Part shown: positions 19,642-27,859 of the stretch, one piece after another
Layout of the letters: the number at the start of each line of letters is the position of its first letter
Position numbering within the stretch: the stretch's first letter is position 1
DNA from: Blattabacterium cuenoti
GTDB lineage: Bacteria > Bacteroidota > Bacteroidia > Flavobacteriales > Blattabacteriaceae
Direction of reading: 5' to 3'
DNA: 64,000 bases
NCBI RefSeq assembly: GCF_014252035.1
Contig: NZ_CP059207.1
Location: 186,001 to 250,000 of the forward strand
The notes under the pieces: model-generated
The model's database searches: none
The model's input: only the letters and a program-made list of their open reading frames with translations
Told to the model about the DNA's origin: nothing
Position numbers and translations under genes: made by a program

Positions 19642-20253
19642 TTAATTATTGTTGCATTTTAAATGTCTCTTTTCAAGAATTTTTATTACTTTTTTTAAAT
19701 TTATTCCTTTTTTATGTAAAAGAATAAGATAATGAAAAAGAACATCTGCAGATTCATTTAAAAATAAGTTTTCATCATTATCTTTCGATTCAATGATCAG
19801 TTCAACAGACTCTTCTCCAAATTTTTGTACTACTCTATTTATTCCTTTTTTCGATAATTTATATACATAAGAATTATCTTCTTCTTCTCTTTTTCTTATT
19901 ATTCGATTTGAAATGATATCTTCTAAAAAAAATAGAAAATTCTTTTTATTCTTTTCTTTCCAACAAGTATCTGTTCCTTTATGACAAATTGGACCAGTTG
20001 GTTTCGCTTTAATTAGTAAAGTATCTCCATCACAATCTACTAATATTTTTTCGATAATAAGGAAGTTTTTACTTACTTCTCCTTTTTTCCACAATCTTTT
20101 TTTAGATCTACTATAAAAAATAACTTTTTTTTCATGAATACTTTTTTCATAAGCATCAATATTCATATAACCCAACATTAGTACTTTATTTGTTTCTGAA
20201 TCTTGAACAATAACGGGAATCAATCCTTTTTTAAAATTTATTTCCTTTCTCAT
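19642..20253 (-). CDS. hisI: Phosphoribosyl-AMP cyclohydrolase / phosphoribosyl-ATP pyrophosphatase
   Basis: Bifunctional HisIE catalysing steps 2 and 3 of histidine synthesis. The 203-residue protein has the HisI domain (about 1-110) with a metal-binding region containing CDGD and CHKGTDTCW, and the HisE domain (about 112-203) with [13 protein letters not shown] and [11 protein letters not shown]. The start at 20253 overlaps the hisF end by 23 nt, compatible with coupling. It is the last gene of the his operon. Confidence 0.96.
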
Positions 20254-21004
20254 ATCGTACTGGAATTTGAAGATTATTTAAATAATGTTTTAAATTTGGA
20301 ATTTCTATTTCTCTGTAATGAAAAATACTTGCGGCCAAAGCTCCATGTGCTTTTCCAACTTGGAATATTTGATAAAAATCATGAAAATTTCCAGCACCAC
20401 CTGATGCAATAACAGGAATAGAAATATGTTCTGATACGTTTCGAGTAATATCTAAAGCAAATCCACTTTTTGTTCCATCATGGTTCATTGAAGTTAATAA
20501 TATTTCTCCTGCACCTCTTTCAGATACTTCTATTGCCCAATCTAAAGTTCTAGTATTAGTACAAATTCTTCCTCCGTTTAAATATACCCACCAATCATTT
20601 TTTTCATATTTTGTATCAATAGCTAACACAATAGATTGACTTCCAAATCTTTTGGAAAAATTTTCTATAAGTTTTGGATTTTTAAAAGCAGCTGTATTAA
20701 TGGATATTTTATCTGCCCCTGATTTCAATAGTAACTCTACATCTTCTTCATTTTTAATACCTCCTCCAACAGTAAAAGGAATATTGATATAACGAGAAAT
20801 ATCTTTAACTAAAGTAATTAAAGTTTTTCTATTTTCATTTGTAGCTGTTATATCAAGAAATATTAACTCATCAGCACCTTGATTCGTATACCATTGAACT
20901 AATTCTATTGGATCTCCAGCATCTATCAAATCCTTAAAATTTACTCCTTTCACTGTTCTACCGTCCCTTATGTCTAAACAGGGAATAATACGTTTCACTA
21001 ACAT
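20231..21004 (-). CDS. hisF: Imidazole glycerol phosphate synthase, cyclase subunit
   Basis: Synthase half of IGP synthase: uses ammonia from HisH to make imidazole glycerol phosphate and AICAR. The 257-residue TIM barrel has the catalytic aspartates D11 ([11 protein letters not shown]) and D130 (VLAIDTKYE), and phosphate-binding glycine loops (VGGGI at about 79-83, ASGGAG near the C terminus). Lies between hisA (14-bp gap) and hisIE. Confidence 0.97.
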
Positions 21005-21018
21005 AATTATTATTTATT

Positions 21019-21747
21019 TTATTTCCAATTTCTTAGTTCTAATAATGATATTCTTTTTTCGTATATAGCCTTTCCAATAATAACTCCATGACAACCCAAA
21101 TGAAATAAATTTTTAATATCTTCTATACTACTAACACCTCCACTTGCTATAAGTTTTATTTTAGGAAATTTTTTTATAATATTACTATACAGAGAAAAAG
21201 AAGGTCCAGATAAAACTCCATCTTTTGATATATCTGTGCAAAAAATTGTTCTTATTCCATCTTTCTCTTTTTTTTTTAAAAAATCCCAAAATGGGATATT
21301 AGAAAGTATTTTCCATCCATTAATTGCTATTTTTTTATTTTTAATATCTACTCCTAATAAAATTTTATCAGGTCCATAAGTATCAATCCAATTTTTAAGA
21401 AAAATAGGTTTTTTTACAGCTATGCTTCCTACAGAAACCATATGACCACCATTTTCAAATACAGTTTTTACATCATTTTCTGTACAAATTCCTCCACCAA
21501 AATCAATAGTTAAATGTGTATTTTTTGCTATTTTTTCTAAAGTTTTCCAATGTACTATTTTACCCTCTCTTGCTCCATCTAAATCTACCAAATGTAATCT
21601 CGATATTCCATTGTCTTCCAACATATAAGCAACATCTAATGGATCATTGTTATAAATTTTCTTTTTTTGAAAATTTCCTTGTATTAAACGAACACATTTT
21701 CCATCAATTAAATCTATAGCTACAATAATATTATTCATTATCATCAC
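21019..21747 (-). CDS. hisA: ProFAR isomerase HisA
   Basis: Isomerises ProFAR to PRFAR in histidine synthesis. The 242-residue TIM barrel carries the catalytic D12 in VAIDLIDGKCVRL, FGGGI, GVDIKN (second aspartate) and IASGGVSSIEDI. The start could be the ATG at 21747, or the in-frame ATG codons 3 and 9 nt further in; the true N terminus is uncertain by a few residues. Gap to hisH is 18 bp. Confidence 0.96.
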   Translation of the reverse strand: MMIMNNIIVAIDLIDGKCVRLIQGNFQKKKIYNNDPLDVAYMLEDNGISRLHLVDLDGAREGKIVHWKTLEKIAKNTHLTIDFGGGICTENDVKTVFENGGHMVSVGSIAVKKPIFLKNWIDTYGPDKILLGVDIKNKKIAINGWKILSNIPFWDFLKKKEKDGIRTIFCTDISKDGVLSGPSFSLYSNIIKKFPKIKLIASGGVSSIEDIKNLFHLGCHGVIIGKAIYEKRISLLELRNWK

Positions 21748-21765
21748 AAAAATTATTTTATAATT

Positions 21766-22356
21766 TTATAATTGAATAAAATTTTCTAATATTCGATGTC
21801 CGACATACGAAGATTTTTCAGGATGAAACTGTACTGCATAAAAATTTTTTCTTTGCAAAGCAGCACTGTAAAATGTTAAATATTCTGTTGTAGCTATAGT
21901 GTATTTTCCCAAAGGTGCATAATAACTGTGTGCAAAATATTGATAACTTCCATCTGGAATATTTTTGAATAAAGGACCTTTTAATTTATGAATGGTATTC
22001 CATCCTATTTTAGGAATCTTATCTTCTTTATTTTTTGATGAAAATTTTTTCACTAATAAATCAAATATTCCTATACATTTTGTATTACTTTCTTCTGAAT
22101 ATTTGCATAATAATTGCATACCTAAACATATTCCTAATACAGGTTTTTCAAACCTTGATAAAAGGATATCCAATTTCTTTTTTTTCAAATATTCCATAGC
22201 AAAATTAGCTTCACCTACTCCAGGAAGAATCACTTTATCTGCACTTTGAATATCTTCTACAGAATCTGTTAAAATCGCTTGTATTCCTATTCTTTCTAGA
22301 GAAAAAAGAACAGATTGTACATTTCCTGCAGGATATTTTATGATGATTATTTTCAT
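21766..22356 (-). CDS. hisH: Imidazole glycerol phosphate synthase, glutaminase subunit
   Basis: Class I glutamine amidotransferase giving ammonia to HisF. With the ATG at 22356 the protein has 196 residues, starts MKIIIIKYPAGN as the family does, and has the nucleophile C77 in GICLGMQ and the His-Glu pair in AVQFHPEKS. A longer frame begins at 22419 but overlaps hisB and adds 21 non-family residues, so it was not used. Confidence 0.95.
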   Translation of the reverse strand: MKIIIIKYPAGNVQSVLFSLERIGIQAILTDSVEDIQSADKVILPGVGEANFAMEYLKKKKLDILLSRFEKPVLGICLGMQLLCKYSEESNTKCIGIFDLLVKKFSSKNKEDKIPKIGWNTIHKLKGPLFKNIPDGSYQYFAHSYYAPLGKYTIATTEYLTFYSAALQRKNFYAVQFHPEKSSYVGHRILENFIQL

Positions 22357-22375
22357 AATTTTTATTAAAAATTTT

Positions 22376-23551
22376 TTACAATATTCCTTTAGAACTAGGT
22401 ATTTTTTTATATATATCATTTTTTTTTATTGCTATTTTAATAGCTCTTGCAAAACATTTAAATATAGATTCTATTTTATGATGTTCATTTTTACCTATAG
22501 CATGAATATGTATATTACATTTTGCATTTAAGGAAAAAGACTTAAAAAAATGATAGAACATTTCTGTAGGCATATTTCCTATTTTTTCTCTAAAAAATTT
22601 TACTTTCCAAAGTAATTTACTTCTTCCTCCAAGATCCAGTACAACAGTAGATAAGCTTTCATCCATAGGAAGAGAATAAAATCCATATCGTTCTATACCT
22701 ATTTTATTTCCTAATGATCTATAAAATGCAGTTCCTAGAGATATTGCTGTATCTTCTATTGTATGATGCTCATCTACATAATGATCTCCAACTGCATTTA
22801 TTTTTAAATCCATGCAGCTATGGAATGACATTTGTTGTAAAAGATGATCAAAAAATCCAATTCCTGTTTGAATATGAGATACTCCTTTTCCATATAAAGA
22901 AATATCTACTTTAATATTTGTTTCCGATGTAGTTCTATGATATGATATTTTTTTATTATAATTGATAGATGATAAATAATTATAAATATCTTCCCAATTA
23001 TCCGTTTTTAAAGATATTATTTTTTCTATACTATTTTTATCATGTATAGTGGAATAAAAATATTTTTCCTCCTTTGTAAATTGTTCATAATGACGATAAT
23101 TTTTTCTTATCCATATAGATTTACAGTTTAAATTTTTTGCTAATATTACATCTGTAAACCTATCTCCAATAACAAAAGATTCAGATAAATCATATAAATC
23201 TGAATTGATATAAGAAGTAAGCATTCCTACACCAGGTTTTCTTGTAGAAAGCTTTTCTTCAGGAAAACTTTTATCTATATGTATAGAATGAAAATTAATT
23301 CCTTCTGTTTTTAGAATATTTAAAATATGATTTTGTATAGACCAAAATATTTTTTCAGGAAACTTATTTGTTCCTAAACCGTCCTGATTACTGACCATAA
23401 CTACATCATAATTTAGTTTCCGTACAATTTTTGATAGAAAAAATATAACTCTTGGATAAAAAATTATTTTTTCAATTGAATCAATTTGATAGTTAGAAGT
23501 ATTTTCTTCTATAATAGTTCCATCTCTATCAATAAACAATATTTTTTTCAT
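22376..23551 (-). CDS. hisB: Histidinol phosphatase / imidazoleglycerol-phosphate dehydratase
   Basis: Bifunctional HisB. The N-terminal HAD phosphatase (about 1-165) has DRDGT with D8 and D10; the C-terminal dehydratase (about 195-391) has RTTSETNI, DHHTIED-like HTIEDTAI, and manganese-binding histidine motifs (DHYVDEHHTIED and NEHHKIE). The start at 23551 lies directly after the hisC stop and matches the HAD start MKKILFIDRDG; a frame opening 36 nt earlier overlaps hisC. The gene performs steps 7 and 9. Confidence 0.96.
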   Translation of the reverse strand: MKKILFIDRDGTIIEENTSNYQIDSIEKIIFYPRVIFFLSKIVRKLNYDVVMVSNQDGLGTNKFPEKIFWSIQNHILNILKTEGINFHSIHIDKSFPEEKLSTRKPGVGMLTSYINSDLYDLSESFVIGDRFTDVILAKNLNCKSIWIRKNYRHYEQFTKEEKYFYSTIHDKNSIEKIISLKTDNWEDIYNYLSSINYNKKISYHRTTSETNIKVDISLYGKGVSHIQTGIGFFDHLLQQMSFHSCMDLKINAVGDHYVDEHHTIEDTAISLGTAFYRSLGNKIGIERYGFYSLPMDESLSTVVLDLGGRSKLLWKVKFFREKIGNMPTEMFYHFFKSFSLNAKCNIHIHAIGKNEHHKIESIFKCFARAIKIAIKKNDIYKKIPSSKGIL

Positions 23552-23552
23552 T

Positions 23553-24674
23553 TTATTTTTTTTTTCTATCATGTGAATATTTTTCAATGTTATTAATTAA
23601 ACACTCATTTTCTTCATGAGTTCCTACTGTTATCCTCAAACAATTTTCACAAAGAATAACCTTTGAACGATCTCTAACAATAATTTTATTATTTATTAAA
23701 TACTTATAAAGATGTATGGATGGGGAATTTATTTTCACTAGAAAAAAATTGGATGAACTAGGATATACTTTATCTATAATAGGAATATTTTTTAATGAAT
23801 TTTTTAAATATTCTCTTTCCGAAAGGATATTTTTTAAATTATAAAAAAATAAATCTTTATTTTCAAGAGCTTTAATTGCTATTTCTTGTGAATTGATACT
23901 TACATTGTATGGAAATTTTATCTTGTTCATCCAACTAATAATAGCTTTTGAAGCTATAGCTATACCTATTCTTAGGCCTGCTAACCCCCAAGATTTAGAT
24001 AATGTTTGTAAAACAATTAAATTAGGAAAATTATCTATTTCATTTAAAATAGATTTTTTAGAGGAAAAATCTATGTAAGCTTCATCTATAACTACTATTC
24101 CTGAAAACTTTTTTATAACAAGTTTGATATCTTCTTTTATTATATCATTTCCAGTAGGGTTATTTGGAGAACAAATGAAAATAATTTTATTTTTGATAAA
24201 GGAATTACTACTATCACTAATAACTTTTTTTATTTCTTTCAAGTTCAATTGATATTTTTCTTTTATAAGAGGAATTTTTATTATATTAACTCCATGAATC
24301 CTTCCACTCACTTCGTACATACCATAAGTAGGAGGAAATATAATAACATTATCTTTACCAGGACAAGAAAAAATACGGTATATTAAATCAATAATTTCAT
24401 CGCTACCATTTCCTAAAAATATTTTGGAAGAATCAATATTTTTGATATACGATATTTTTTTTTTCAATTTTTCTTGTAATGGATCTGGATATCGATTATA
24501 AGAATTATAAAAAGAAAAAGGAGATCCAAAAGAATTTTCATTAGCATCTAAAAAAATAGAATCTTTTTTTTCTTTATGTTCTATTCTAGCAGAAATATAA
24601 GGATTAATATTTAAAATATTTTTCCTTATTAAGGAAACTAAATCAAAATCTGAATAACAACTATTCTTATTCAT
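23553..24674 (-). CDS. hisC: Histidinol-phosphate aminotransferase
   Basis: PLP fold type I enzyme making histidinol phosphate. The 373-residue chain has LDANENSFG (42-50), CSPNNPTGN (168-176), DEAYIDF (197-203), and the PLP lysine K227 in TLSKSWGLAGLRIG. The last codons include a run of ten A that ends the gene in KKK just before the hisB ATG, a possible slippage site at the junction. Second-step partner of hisD upstream (27-bp gap). Confidence 0.96.
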   Translation of the reverse strand: MNKNSCYSDFDLVSLIRKNILNINPYISARIEHKEKKDSIFLDANENSFGSPFSFYNSYNRYPDPLQEKLKKKISYIKNIDSSKIFLGNGSDEIIDLIYRIFSCPGKDNVIIFPPTYGMYEVSGRIHGVNIIKIPLIKEKYQLNLKEIKKVISDSSNSFIKNKIIFICSPNNPTGNDIIKEDIKLVIKKFSGIVVIDEAYIDFSSKKSILNEIDNFPNLIVLQTLSKSWGLAGLRIGIAIASKAIISWMNKIKFPYNVSINSQEIAIKALENKDLFFYNLKNILSEREYLKNSLKNIPIIDKVYPSSSNFFLVKINSPSIHLYKYLINNKIIVRDRSKVILCENCLRITVGTHEENECLINNIEKYSHDRKKK

Positions 24675-24701
24675 GTATTTTATTATTTATTAAAATTAGT
24701 T

Positions 24702-25991
24702 TTATTTTTTTAACCGAATGTCAATAGATTTTTTATGAGCAATTAAACCTTCTTCAGAAGATAAAATACTTATACATTCATGTAAATTTCTTAATCCTTC
24801 TTTAGATATCTTTTGAAAAGTTGTCTTTTTGACGAAACTATCTATAGATACTCCGCTATAAAATTTAGCAAAACCATATGTAGGAAGTACATGATTAGTT
24901 CCTGAAGCATAATCTCCAGCAGTAACAGGAGAATAATTTCCTATAAAAATGGATCCAGCATTTATAACTTTATCGGCCCAATAAGTAGCATTATTACAAT
25001 TAATAATAAGATGTTCTGGTGCAATTTCATTGGACAATTCCATTGCTTCTTCTAAAGAAGAAAGAACAATGATTTTTGCATTTTTTAATGAATTTTCAAT
25101 AATGTGCTGTTTATTTTTAAGAAAAAAAATTTGTTTTTCTAATTGAAATTTTACTTCATTTATCCAATACTCTTTATTTTTAGTAATTAGAACTATATAA
25201 CTTTCCGGATCATGTTCTGATTGTGATAATAAATCAGAAGCTACATATTTTGGATTAGCTTTATTATCAGCAATAATAACAATTTCTGAAGGGCCTGCTG
25301 GAATATCGATAGATACAACATCTCTATGTGATACGATTTGTTTAGCTTTTGTTACATAAGAATTTCCTGGTCCAAATATTTTGTATACAGAAGGAATACT
25401 TTCTGTTCCGTAAGTCATTGCAGCTATTGCTTGTGCTCCTCCTACTTTATAAATATGATTAATTCCTATGTATTGAGATGCATATAAAATAATGGGTGAT
25501 ATTTTTCCTTTTTTATTTGGCGGACTACATAAAATAATATTTTTACATCCTGCTAGTTTTCCTGGAATACCTAACATTAATACAGTTGATAGTAAAGGAG
25601 CAGTTCCACTAGGAATATAAAATCCTATTTTTTCTATAGGTATGCTTTTTCTCCAACAAAAAATTCCTTTTGATATTTCTATTTTTTTTTCTTTATGTAT
25701 TTGTTTTTCATGAAATATTTTAATATTATTGTATGCCTTTTCTATAGATTTTTTTAAACAATCTGAAATTGTTGTATTAGCTTCATAGAATTCTTTTTCC
25801 GTTACTATTAAATTATCAATATCAACATGATCATATTTTTTAGTATAGGATTTAACCGCTGTATCTCCATGTAGCTTAACATTATCTATAATAGAAATTA
25901 TTAAATTTTTTAAATTATCATTGTATTTAATTTTTCTTTTTGTTATGTTTTTTCTTTCTTTTAAAGAAGGATAGAAATACACTGGAATCAT
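24702..25991 (-). CDS. hisD: Histidinol dehydrogenase
   Basis: Zinc- and NAD-dependent four-electron oxidation of histidinol to histidine, the last two steps. The 429-residue protein has GTAPLLSTVLMLG, the signature IDIPAGPSEIVIIAD, zinc ligands in LLSQSEHDPES and GDYASGTNHVLPT, and the final HKKSIDIRL. Length is normal. 21 bp downstream of hisG. Confidence 0.97.
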   Translation of the reverse strand: MIPVYFYPSLKERKNITKRKIKYNDNLKNLIISIIDNVKLHGDTAVKSYTKKYDHVDIDNLIVTEKEFYEANTTISDCLKKSIEKAYNNIKIFHEKQIHKEKKIEISKGIFCWRKSIPIEKIGFYIPSGTAPLLSTVLMLGIPGKLAGCKNIILCSPPNKKGKISPIILYASQYIGINHIYKVGGAQAIAAMTYGTESIPSVYKIFGPGNSYVTKAKQIVSHRDVVSIDIPAGPSEIVIIADNKANPKYVASDLLSQSEHDPESYIVLITKNKEYWINEVKFQLEKQIFFLKNKQHIIENSLKNAKIIVLSSLEEAMELSNEIAPEHLIINCNNATYWADKVINAGSIFIGNYSPVTAGDYASGTNHVLPTYGFAKFYSGVSIDSFVKKTTFQKISKEGLRNLHECISILSSEEGLIAHKKSIDIRLKK

Positions 25992-26012: not shown

Positions 26013-26870
26013 TTATAGTACAATTTTTTCTATTGGAAGAACTAATATATCTTGTGCTCCAAGTGATTTTAAATTTTCTATTATTCCCCAAAAATCATTC
26101 TCATTTACTACAGAATGTACTGAACTGCATTTAGAATTTGCTAAAGGAAGAACAACTGGACTTTTTATTCCAGGTAAATAAGAAATAATTTTGTCTAATC
26201 GTTCATTAGGTACATTTAGTAGAATGTATTTATTATTTTTTGCTTTTTTCACTGCTCTGATACGAAATAGTAATTTATCCATTATCATGTTCTGAGGGGA
26301 ACTTAAATGAAGATGGGAGGCTAATACTGCTTCAGATTGAAGGACTGTTTCTACTTCTTTAAGCCCATTCATAAATAATGTTGATCCACTACTAACTAAA
26401 TCACATATGCAATCAGCTAGTCCTATTCCAGGGGCTATTTCTACTGCACCTGATATTTCATGTATTTCTGTTTTTATGTATCTTTTCTTGAAAAATTCTC
26501 CAACTAAAAACGGATAGCTTGTAGCTATCCGTTTACCATCTAAATCTTTTATATTTTTGTATATATAAGATTTCGGTACAGCTATGGATAAACGACATTT
26601 TCCAAAACCTAAAGTTTCTTTTATTATTATTTTTTTTCTTTTTTCTAATAAAACATTTTTTCCAACAATTCCTATATCTGCTACTCCATCTTCTAAATAT
26701 TGAGGAATATCATCGTCTCGTAAGAAAAGTATTTCCATAGGAAAATTCATTGCTGTTGTTTTTAATTTATCTATTCCAATATTAATTTCAATACTGCAGT
26801 CTTTAAGTAATTTTATGGAGTCCTCATAAAGACGGCCTGATTTTTGAATAGCTATTTTTAGTTTATCCAT
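26013..26870 (-). CDS. hisG: ATP phosphoribosyltransferase, long form
   Basis: First and usually feedback-controlled step of histidine synthesis, from ATP and PRPP. At 285 residues it is the long HisG form with a C-terminal regulatory ACT-like domain (about 210-285), so no HisZ is needed. The AIQKSGRLYEDS start, DIGIVGKNVL (65-74) and the PRPP loop VSSGSTLFMNGL (about 160-171) are present. It heads the eight-gene his operon. The 5' leader holds a perfect 12-bp hairpin followed by seven T (see the terminator entry), suggesting control of operon entry. Confidence 0.96.
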   Translation of the reverse strand: MDKLKIAIQKSGRLYEDSIKLLKDCSIEINIGIDKLKTTAMNFPMEILFLRDDDIPQYLEDGVADIGIVGKNVLLEKRKKIIIKETLGFGKCRLSIAVPKSYIYKNIKDLDGKRIATSYPFLVGEFFKKRYIKTEIHEISGAVEIAPGIGLADCICDLVSSGSTLFMNGLKEVETVLQSEAVLASHLHLSSPQNMIMDKLLFRIRAVKKAKNNKYILLNVPNERLDKIISYLPGIKSPVVLPLANSKCSSVHSVVNENDFWGIIENLKSLGAQDILVLPIEKIVL

Positions 26871-26890: not shown

Positions 26891-26925
26891 GAAAAAAATA
26901 AAAGCTTACAGGCGTAAGCTTTTAT
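26891..26925 (-). terminator. Intrinsic-terminator-like hairpin in the hisG leader
   Basis: Perfect 12-bp stem ATAAAAGCTTAC/GTAAGCTTTTAT (26898-26909 and 26914-26925) with a 4-nt loop. Read on the minus strand it is followed by seven T (26891-26897), the form of an intrinsic terminator. It lies 20 nt before the hisG ATG and downstream of a TATATTTG box, so it could act as an attenuator. No histidine-rich leader peptide is visible; the short frames here read MII and MKLL. Confidence 0.7.
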
Positions 26926-26958
26926 AGTAATTTCATATCAAATTATCATGAATTATGA

Positions 26959-26966
26959 CAAATATA
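26959..26966 (-). promoter_or_regulatory. Putative -7 box for the his operon
   Basis: Minus strand TATATTTG matches TAnnTTTG. A start about 7 nt downstream would give a leader of about 80 nt that includes the terminator-like hairpin. The nearest upstream TTG is at 25 bp, longer than usual. Confidence 0.4.
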
Positions 26967-26971
26967 ATAAC

Positions 26972-26998
26972 TATTTTGAATATTTTCTATTCAAAATA
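26972..26998. repeat. Perfect 11-bp inverted repeat between hisG and xth
   Basis: Arms TATTTTGAATA (26972-26982) and TATTCAAAATA (26988-26998) with a TTTTC loop. It sits immediately upstream of the his -7 box on one side and 6 bp before the xth ATG on the other. It could be an operator or a hairpin in the xth mRNA. Confidence 0.6.
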
Positions 26999-27004
26999 TA
27001 TATA

Positions 27005-27769
27005 ATGAAAATAGTAGGATATAACATAAATGGAATTAGATCTGGAATCAATAAGGGGTTGTCTATTTGGATTAAAAAATACAATCCTTACATTTTATGT
27101 TTACAAGAAATAAAAGCATTACAAAATCAAATAAATACAAATATTTTTGAAAAATTGGGATACTATCATTATTGGCATTCATCAGTAAGAAAAGGTTATA
27201 GTGGTGTTGCTATTTTATGTAAAGAAAAACCTATTCATGTAGAATATGGAATTGGTTTAGAATCTATTGATAAAGAAGGAAGAGTTTTACGGATAGATTT
27301 AAAAAATTTATCTATTATCAGTATTTATTTACCTTCAGGAAATAATATGGAGAAAAGATTAGATTTTAAATTTTTCTTTATGAAAAAATTTTTTATATAT
27401 GTAAAAAAAATACAAAAAAATTTAAAAAATATTATTATTTGTGGAGACTATAATATTTGTCATAAGCCAATGGACATATATGATCCTATTCGTAATAGAA
27501 ATATATCTGGATTTTTACCAGAAGAAAGGAAATGGATGACAAACTTTATGAGGTTAGGATTCATAGATAGTTTTAGAAACTATGTTAAAAATGCGGGACA
27601 TTACAGTTGGTGGAGTTATAAATATAAAGCTAGAATAAAAAATATAGGATGGAGAATCGATTACATAATGGTAAGTCATTCTTTAAAAAAGAAAATGATT
27701 AACGCATATTTATTACCCGAAATAATATATTCGGATCATTGTCCAACAGTATTAGAATTGAAAAAATGA
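27005..27769 (+). CDS. xth: Exodeoxyribonuclease III / AP endonuclease
   Basis: Base-excision repair nuclease of the EEP fold. With the ATG at 27005 the protein is 254 residues and starts MKIVGYNINGIRSG as the family does; E35 in CLQEIK, the GDYNICHKPMD block, WRIDYIMVS and the final SDHCPTVLELK are present. A frame opening at 26948 adds a non-family tyrosine-rich stretch and would run through the inverted repeat, so it was rejected. Divergent from hisG. Confidence 0.95.
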   Translation: MKIVGYNINGIRSGINKGLSIWIKKYNPYILCLQEIKALQNQINTNIFEKLGYYHYWHSSVRKGYSGVAILCKEKPIHVEYGIGLESIDKEGRVLRIDLKNLSIISIYLPSGNNMEKRLDFKFFFMKKFFIYVKKIQKNLKNIIICGDYNICHKPMDIYDPIRNRNISGFLPEERKWMTNFMRLGFIDSFRNYVKNAGHYSWWSYKYKARIKNIGWRIDYIMVSHSLKKKMINAYLLPEIIYSDHCPTVLELKK

Positions 27770-27786
27770 AAAACATATTATAATAA

Positions 27787-27859
27787 TGACCTGACTGGGA
27801 TTCGAACCCAGGACCCTTACATTAAAAGTGTAATGCTCTACCAGCTGAGCTATCAGGTC
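27787..27859 (-). tRNA. tRNA-Lys (anticodon TTT)
   Basis: 73-nt cloverleaf on the minus strand. The acceptor 5' strand GACCTGA pairs with TCAGGTC; D loop AGCTGGTAG; anticodon loop CTTTTAA (anticodon at 27824-27826 on the plus strand as AAA); T loop TTCGAAT. No CCA is encoded. A TATCTTTG box upstream (27894-27901) may drive it. Confidence 0.97.

Follow-up and report, generated by a model that had tools for sequence, protein, structure and literature searches.

A terminator-like hairpin in front of hisG in Blattabacterium, probably the remaining half of an ancestral his attenuator

The his Operon and the Sequence in Front of hisG

The stretch of DNA analyzed here (the window, 64,000 nucleotides) is part of a 621,526-bp Blattabacterium genome and carries a his operon on its minus strand. 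The leading gene, hisG (26013..26870, TIGR00070), is followed by hisD, hisC, hisB, hisH, hisA, hisF, and hisIE (19642..25991), which are tightly packed and run in the same direction; the order of the eight genes is G-D-C-B-H-A-F-IE with hisG at the head. The xth gene (27005..27769, plus strand, TIGR00633) is divergent from hisG, an arrangement found in 49/49 genomes of the genus. The next gene on the minus strand is tRNA-Lys (27787-27859), about 860 bp away with xth antisense in between. It had been stated beforehand that no minus-strand protein gene lies upstream which would need a terminator here, and this is correct.

Reading the minus strand toward hisG, a conserved block, AAAATATTCAAAATAG (26971..26986, recognized by pairwise identity in alignment A1, described below), lies 5′ of a promoter-like -7 box, TATATTTG (26959..26966), and is possibly an upstream promoter element. 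A short leader of 33 nt follows (26926..26958) in which no His-rich uORF could be read; the only ORFs that start in it are the short MII and MKLL. Then comes a terminator-like hairpin (26898..26925) with the arms ATAAAAGCTTAC-GCCT-GTAAGCTTTTAT, which form 12 pairs without mismatch around the core GCTTAC/GTAAGC and enclose the loop GCCT at 26910-26913. The hairpin runs into a T7 tract (26892..26898) whose first T doubles as the final stem base (26898). The hisG ATG at 26870 lies 27 nt past the stem and 21 nt past the T run, one more than the 20 nt of the original prediction; its box, perfect 12-bp hairpin, 4-nt loop, and seven T before hisG were all confirmed by direct reading of the sequence.

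The fold of the leader RNA has an energy of -16.6 kcal/mol (z = -4.2), which none of 200 shuffles equaled. In the whole window the hairpin is the sole site with a perfect stem of at least 10 bp, at least 3 G-C pairs, and at least 6 T in the next 8 nucleotides, where a mean of 0.03 such sites per window is expected from 60 dinucleotide shuffles. With a looser cut-off (at least 8 bp, 3 GC, and 6 T) just one further site appeared, and the claim that intrinsic-type terminators are nearly absent elsewhere thus holds at a stringent cut-off. A terminator scan of the surrounding 20 kb likewise gave the longest terminator-like stem to the hisG hairpin. The genome has a Rho gene, so other transcript ends need not rely on hairpins. 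The d score of the hairpin, an E. coli-calibrated measure, was 18.8; among the 48 hairpins of the genus it was above zero in 26 and below zero in 22, a marginal outcome that speaks against termination in all of these genomes. Such moderate predicted strength would suit partial rather than full termination.

The box alone is not above chance, since TAnnTTTG occurs 117 times in the window against 125 expected. The leaders inspected have no second TAnnTTTG box after the hairpin and before hisG, and the second boxes present in four leaders precede the stem. If the box is the promoter, and no other lies downstream of the hairpin, then all his transcripts carry the hairpin, and the operon is damped if the hairpin terminates at all. 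A weak second DNA match of this region in its own genome was set aside; it spans the AT-rich promoter block and excludes the hairpin.

Conservation across the Genus

The genus set consisted of 49 genomes (leaders L081-L110 and L113-L131). The named Blattabacterium strains L001-L006 were left uncounted because their leaders recur in this set, as were L132-L139, which are further copies of its genomes. Both hisG and a TAT(A/C)TTTG box at the corresponding place were present in 49/49 genomes, the box as TATATTTG in 46 and as TATCTTTG in three. The hairpin was found in 48/49 genomes and its exact core GCTTAC..GTAAGC in 45/49. Core variants occur in L116, L119, and L122; the L116 hairpin contains one mismatch, though its stem and T run are both longer. 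Genome-wide, the pattern AAGCTTACN{3,20}GTAAGCTT matched once in each of 45/49 genomes, always at hisG, and its reversed control gave 0 matches. Another pattern, TTAAGCTT..., was poorly chosen and carries no information.

How evenly is the leader conserved? Mean pairwise identity was 0.95 in the 5′ arm and 0.97 in the 3′ arm, 0.70 in the T tail, 0.55 in the linker between box and stem, and 0.39 upstream; the 36 nt ending at the box reached 0.73 against 0.39 in the preceding 36 nt. Alignment A1 comprised 43/49 leaders, with L097, L099, L104, L106, L123, and L127 omitted as near-identical, overlong, or hairpin-less. The ten core pairs are near-invariant, and the outer pairs are variable and co-vary in some genomes. 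By pair counts in these 43 leaders, both-sided changes occurred at five pairs, of which three belong to the outer stem; 0/500 shuffles matched this number. The near-invariance of the core may be due to AT bias, because a change from G-C to A-U weakens a stem with three G-C pairs and a change from A-U to G-C opposes mutation. This bias is a possible explanation for the lack of compensatory drift in the core after loss of an antiterminator, and the core could conceivably have a second, unseen partner.

A T run of at least 5 follows the core in 38/48 hairpins, three genomes have lost the T tract, and the distance from hairpin to hisG varies from 7 to 41 nt. The proposed comparison of leaders across the genus yielded co-varying pairs and a T tract preserved in most genomes rather than in all. 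Loss of the stem in related strains without compensation had been named as evidence against the hairpin; a single genome (G043) has lost it and 48/49 keep it, which mostly favours the hairpin. When the 1,500 bp preceding hisG were compared among 30 genomes, no second hairpin turned up with similar regularity; one is common to just two genomes, L082 and L083.

Loop length ranges from 4 to 15 nt in the genus, and loops occur in both orientations. Between close relatives they are often exact reverse complements (AAGA/TCTT, TTTTT/AAAAA, TATATT/AATATA), in leaders that are otherwise up to 0.93 identical. AAGA was found in 10 genomes and TCTT in 7, and on the hisG tree this loop has changed at least six times. 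This pattern suggests recurrent inversion of the spacer between the arms, which may help to keep the arms matched. The inversions also indicate loose constraint on the sequence and orientation of the loop.

One clade, G001, G041, G043, and G047, has a broken terminator (support 100/98 on the hisG tree). The T tract is lost in G001, G041, and G047 and the hairpin in G043, while hisG is intact; termination is thus not essential throughout the genus. The stem persists in all three T-less genomes, as a perfect 12-bp one in two of them. A stem kept without its T tract would favour either a role beyond termination or recent decay. The leaders of this clade are L104 (G043), L117, L120, and L128.

His Attenuators of Relatives

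For comparison we used 74 Chitinophaga-type loci (L007-L080) and 40 Flavobacteriales loci, the latter hand-picked to span the families of the order out of 74 non-Blattabacterium genomes with a hisG match. A leader uORF with at least three His codons precedes hisG in 70/74 Chitinophaga-type and 40/40 Flavobacteriales loci (110/114 overall), and a terminator was found in 73/74 and 39/40, respectively. Antiterminator pairing at p<=0.05 was obtained for 69/73 terminators of the first group and 33/39 of the second (102/112 overall). A transcriptome report on a free-living flavobacterium gives clues for leader-peptide attenuation ahead of amino-acid operons, and describes structured 5′ elements, that of hisG included, as conserved across other Flavobacteriaceae genera (PMC9723704).

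The Chitinophaga terminator core is GCTTACC..GGTAAGC, with an antiterminator arm GGTAGGC or GGTAAGC. The core GCTTAC..GTAAGC, the same as in Blattabacterium, was found in 47/74 Chitinophaga-type loci by a strict and in 71/74 by a loose definition, compared with 1/23,800 shuffled upstream regions. It lies at a median of 25 nt from hisG, near the Blattabacterium distance. Most Flavobacteriales terminator cores are CCCGTCTGA or CCCGTTTGA, and a GCTTAC-type core was found in just 2/40 of these loci (L140 strict, L142 a near match); the Chitinophaga-type loci are therefore the main support for descent of the GCTTAC core in its exact form. Many Flavobacteriales his leaders (L140-L179) also have a TTTACTCAGAC-like repeat just before hisG which is complementary to the terminator 5′ arm and loop, possibly an additional switch element.

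Within the Blattabacterium family, the less reduced member G218 (L181, 1.3 Mb) has the terminator AGAAGTTTGC..GCAAGCTTTT plus ATTGTTTTTA located 17 nt before hisG, with GCAAGCTTTTATTGTTTTT as its 3′ arm and tail. Its leader is eroded and has few His codons; a GGTAAGCA stretch resembles an antiterminator arm, and the pairing was not significant (p = 0.475). To judge by these sequences, the his attenuator of G218 looks like a half-eroded intermediate. In four tiny-genome members of the family with hisG (L180, L182, L183, L184) no recognizable attenuator was found.

Search for a Sensor in Blattabacterium

If relatives have a complete attenuator, then we can ask: What is left of its sensor in Blattabacterium? 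By the criterion used for the relatives, at least three His codons, a His-rich uORF was present in 2/49 genus leaders, the window not among them. Antiterminator pairing in the 90-nt segment, again as for the relatives, reached p<=0.05 in 2/48 hairpins. For the leader in the window, a separate calculation of antiterminator pairing gave p = 0.985. The absence of a His-codon leader and of an antiterminator, noted in the original prediction for the window, thus extends across the genus under criteria that detect both in relatives. Presence of both in relatives and absence in Blattabacterium by the same criteria is read most economically as loss of the sensor with retention of the terminator.

Several other sensors were considered and rejected. 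At gathering score, Rfam models (T-box, His_leader, riboswitches) matched only two tRNAs in the window, and a known riboswitch or T-box was rejected on this ground. The weak, bulged pairing of GTRATGCA with AGCTTAC was discarded as a genus-wide antiterminator: pairing at p<=0.05 was seen in 8/48 hairpins with box-to-stem segments and in 2/48 with 90-nt segments. ATGCAT lies exactly 5 nt past the box in 21/49 leaders and reads Met-His-stop in 18. As a mini-leader this was rejected, because ATG drifts to ATA (ATACAT in 9/49) while CAT stays, and the window has none; judged by its pattern of change, ATGCAT/ATACAT resembles a conserved sequence at the start site more than it does a Met-His ORF.

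As a separate observation, a second small hairpin of at least 6 bp is present at the presumed 5′ end, in the first 30 nt past the box, in 11/15 leaders of the clade with L085, L089, L096, L110, and L121. Its stem is changed yet paired in L089, L096, and L121, and it occurs in only 5/34 other leaders.

Interpretation

We consider that the hairpin probably derives from an ancestral leader-peptide his attenuator, of which it is the terminator half, the sensor having been lost. It would now probably set his expression by constitutive, partial termination. An ancestor would have had a full attenuator before hisG, as free-living Bacteroidota have. The lineage of Blattabacterium would then have lost the His leader peptide and the antiterminator arm by decay and kept the promoter, the terminator stem, and, for the most part, the T tract. 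RNA polymerase starting at the TATATTTG box would transcribe the hairpin ahead of hisG, and a fixed fraction of it would stop in the T tract. In this way the element could fix the expression of all eight genes, hisG-D-C-B-H-A-F-IE, independently of histidine. The original prediction of a possible his attenuator is upheld as to origin and position, with the attenuator of relatives standing at this place and its terminator core kept. Its doubt about a classical His attenuator is likewise borne out. Of the alternatives it named, plain dampening of expression, taken here as constitutive partial termination, is the best of those that remain. Loss of regulation is a general expectation for symbionts with shrunken genomes.

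Could the stem have ceased to terminate, being kept as a 5′ hairpin which stabilizes the his mRNA or holds the ribosome start site accessible? We regard this as unlikely. The stems without a T tract in G001, G041, and G047, two of three of them perfect over 12 bp, speak for such a role, as do a T tail more variable (0.70) than the stem (0.95-0.97) and d scores below zero in 22/48 hairpins. However, a non-terminating stem agrees poorly with the T run of at least 5 after the core in 38/48 hairpins, and the terminator-like architecture, the position, and the core all correspond to the attenuator terminators of relatives. The hairpin is, moreover, lost in the sister of the T-less genomes, which looks like decay.

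It is still less probable that the element remains a conditional attenuator whose sensor is something other than a His-rich peptide, such as a 5′ AUG-CAU(-stop) mini-ORF or GURAUGCA pairing with the terminator 5′ arm. The 21/49 leaders with ATGCAT 5 nt past the box, 18 of them with Met-His-stop, and complementarity between GTRATGCA and AGCTTAC in part of the leaders (8/48 at p<=0.05 with box-to-stem segments) are consistent with it. Yet ATG is the part that drifts (ATACAT in 9/49; 9 changes on the hisG tree) while CAT persists, the opposite of start-codon conservation; an antiterminator was obtained in only 2/48 with the 90-nt segment, and the window leader has neither the ATGCAT mini-ORF nor the GTRATGCA pairing. 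It is very improbable, in our view, that the repeat acts at the DNA level instead of as an RNA element of the his leader, whether as an operator for a regulator of hisG and xth or as an insulator that blocks read-through from tRNA-Lys. Strong conservation of both arms and a site between divergent genes would fit a DNA element, but a T tract is present on just one side. A palindromic protein operator was rejected, because a dimer site has fixed half-site spacing and this spacer varies from 4 to 15 nt and inverts; an insulator at this place would likewise block transcripts that begin at the his promoter box. In the leaders inspected, no second box separates the hairpin from the ATG.

Returning to the sensorless terminator, a more far-reaching version can be offered as speculation, and we doubt it as a whole: before the genus diversified, the attenuator was reduced to its terminator, which has since been a permanent brake without a sensor, the GCTTAC stem is perhaps read by a non-peptide sensor, and loop inversion helps to keep the arms matched. 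The sensor of this regulator seems to have been outlasted by its output half, which is more conserved than the rest of the same leader. This makes the locus a testable case of a switch becoming a fixed setting for an amino-acid pathway, and the 49 natural variants, including the clade with the broken terminator, allow comparison of his transcript levels.

Comparison with Known Systems

A search of titles and abstract openings in the literature surfaced no earlier description of a his attenuator in Blattabacterium. In the minute hairpin-loop inversions reported for chloroplast spacers (PMC2903610), related sequences likewise carry the loop in either orientation, flanked by short inverted repeats, whereas the case here concerns a bacterial symbiont and an operon leader. 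An ordinary intrinsic terminator also has a stem followed by a T tract, but the Blattabacterium hairpin stands at the start of an operon instead of its end and is conserved genus-wide. The his attenuator of E. coli has a terminator before hisG. The Gammaproteobacteria his leader (Rfam His_leader) shares this placement with Blattabacterium, which differs in having neither an Rfam leader match in the window nor a leader peptide. In contrast to the leader-peptide his attenuators of Bacteroidota (Chitinophaga, Flavobacteriales), Blattabacterium has an AT-rich stem and a short leader with no His-rich peptide and no antiterminator arm. What it shares with them is the place before hisG and the terminator hairpin with its T tract, and with the Chitinophaga type also the same GCTTAC..GTAAGC core.
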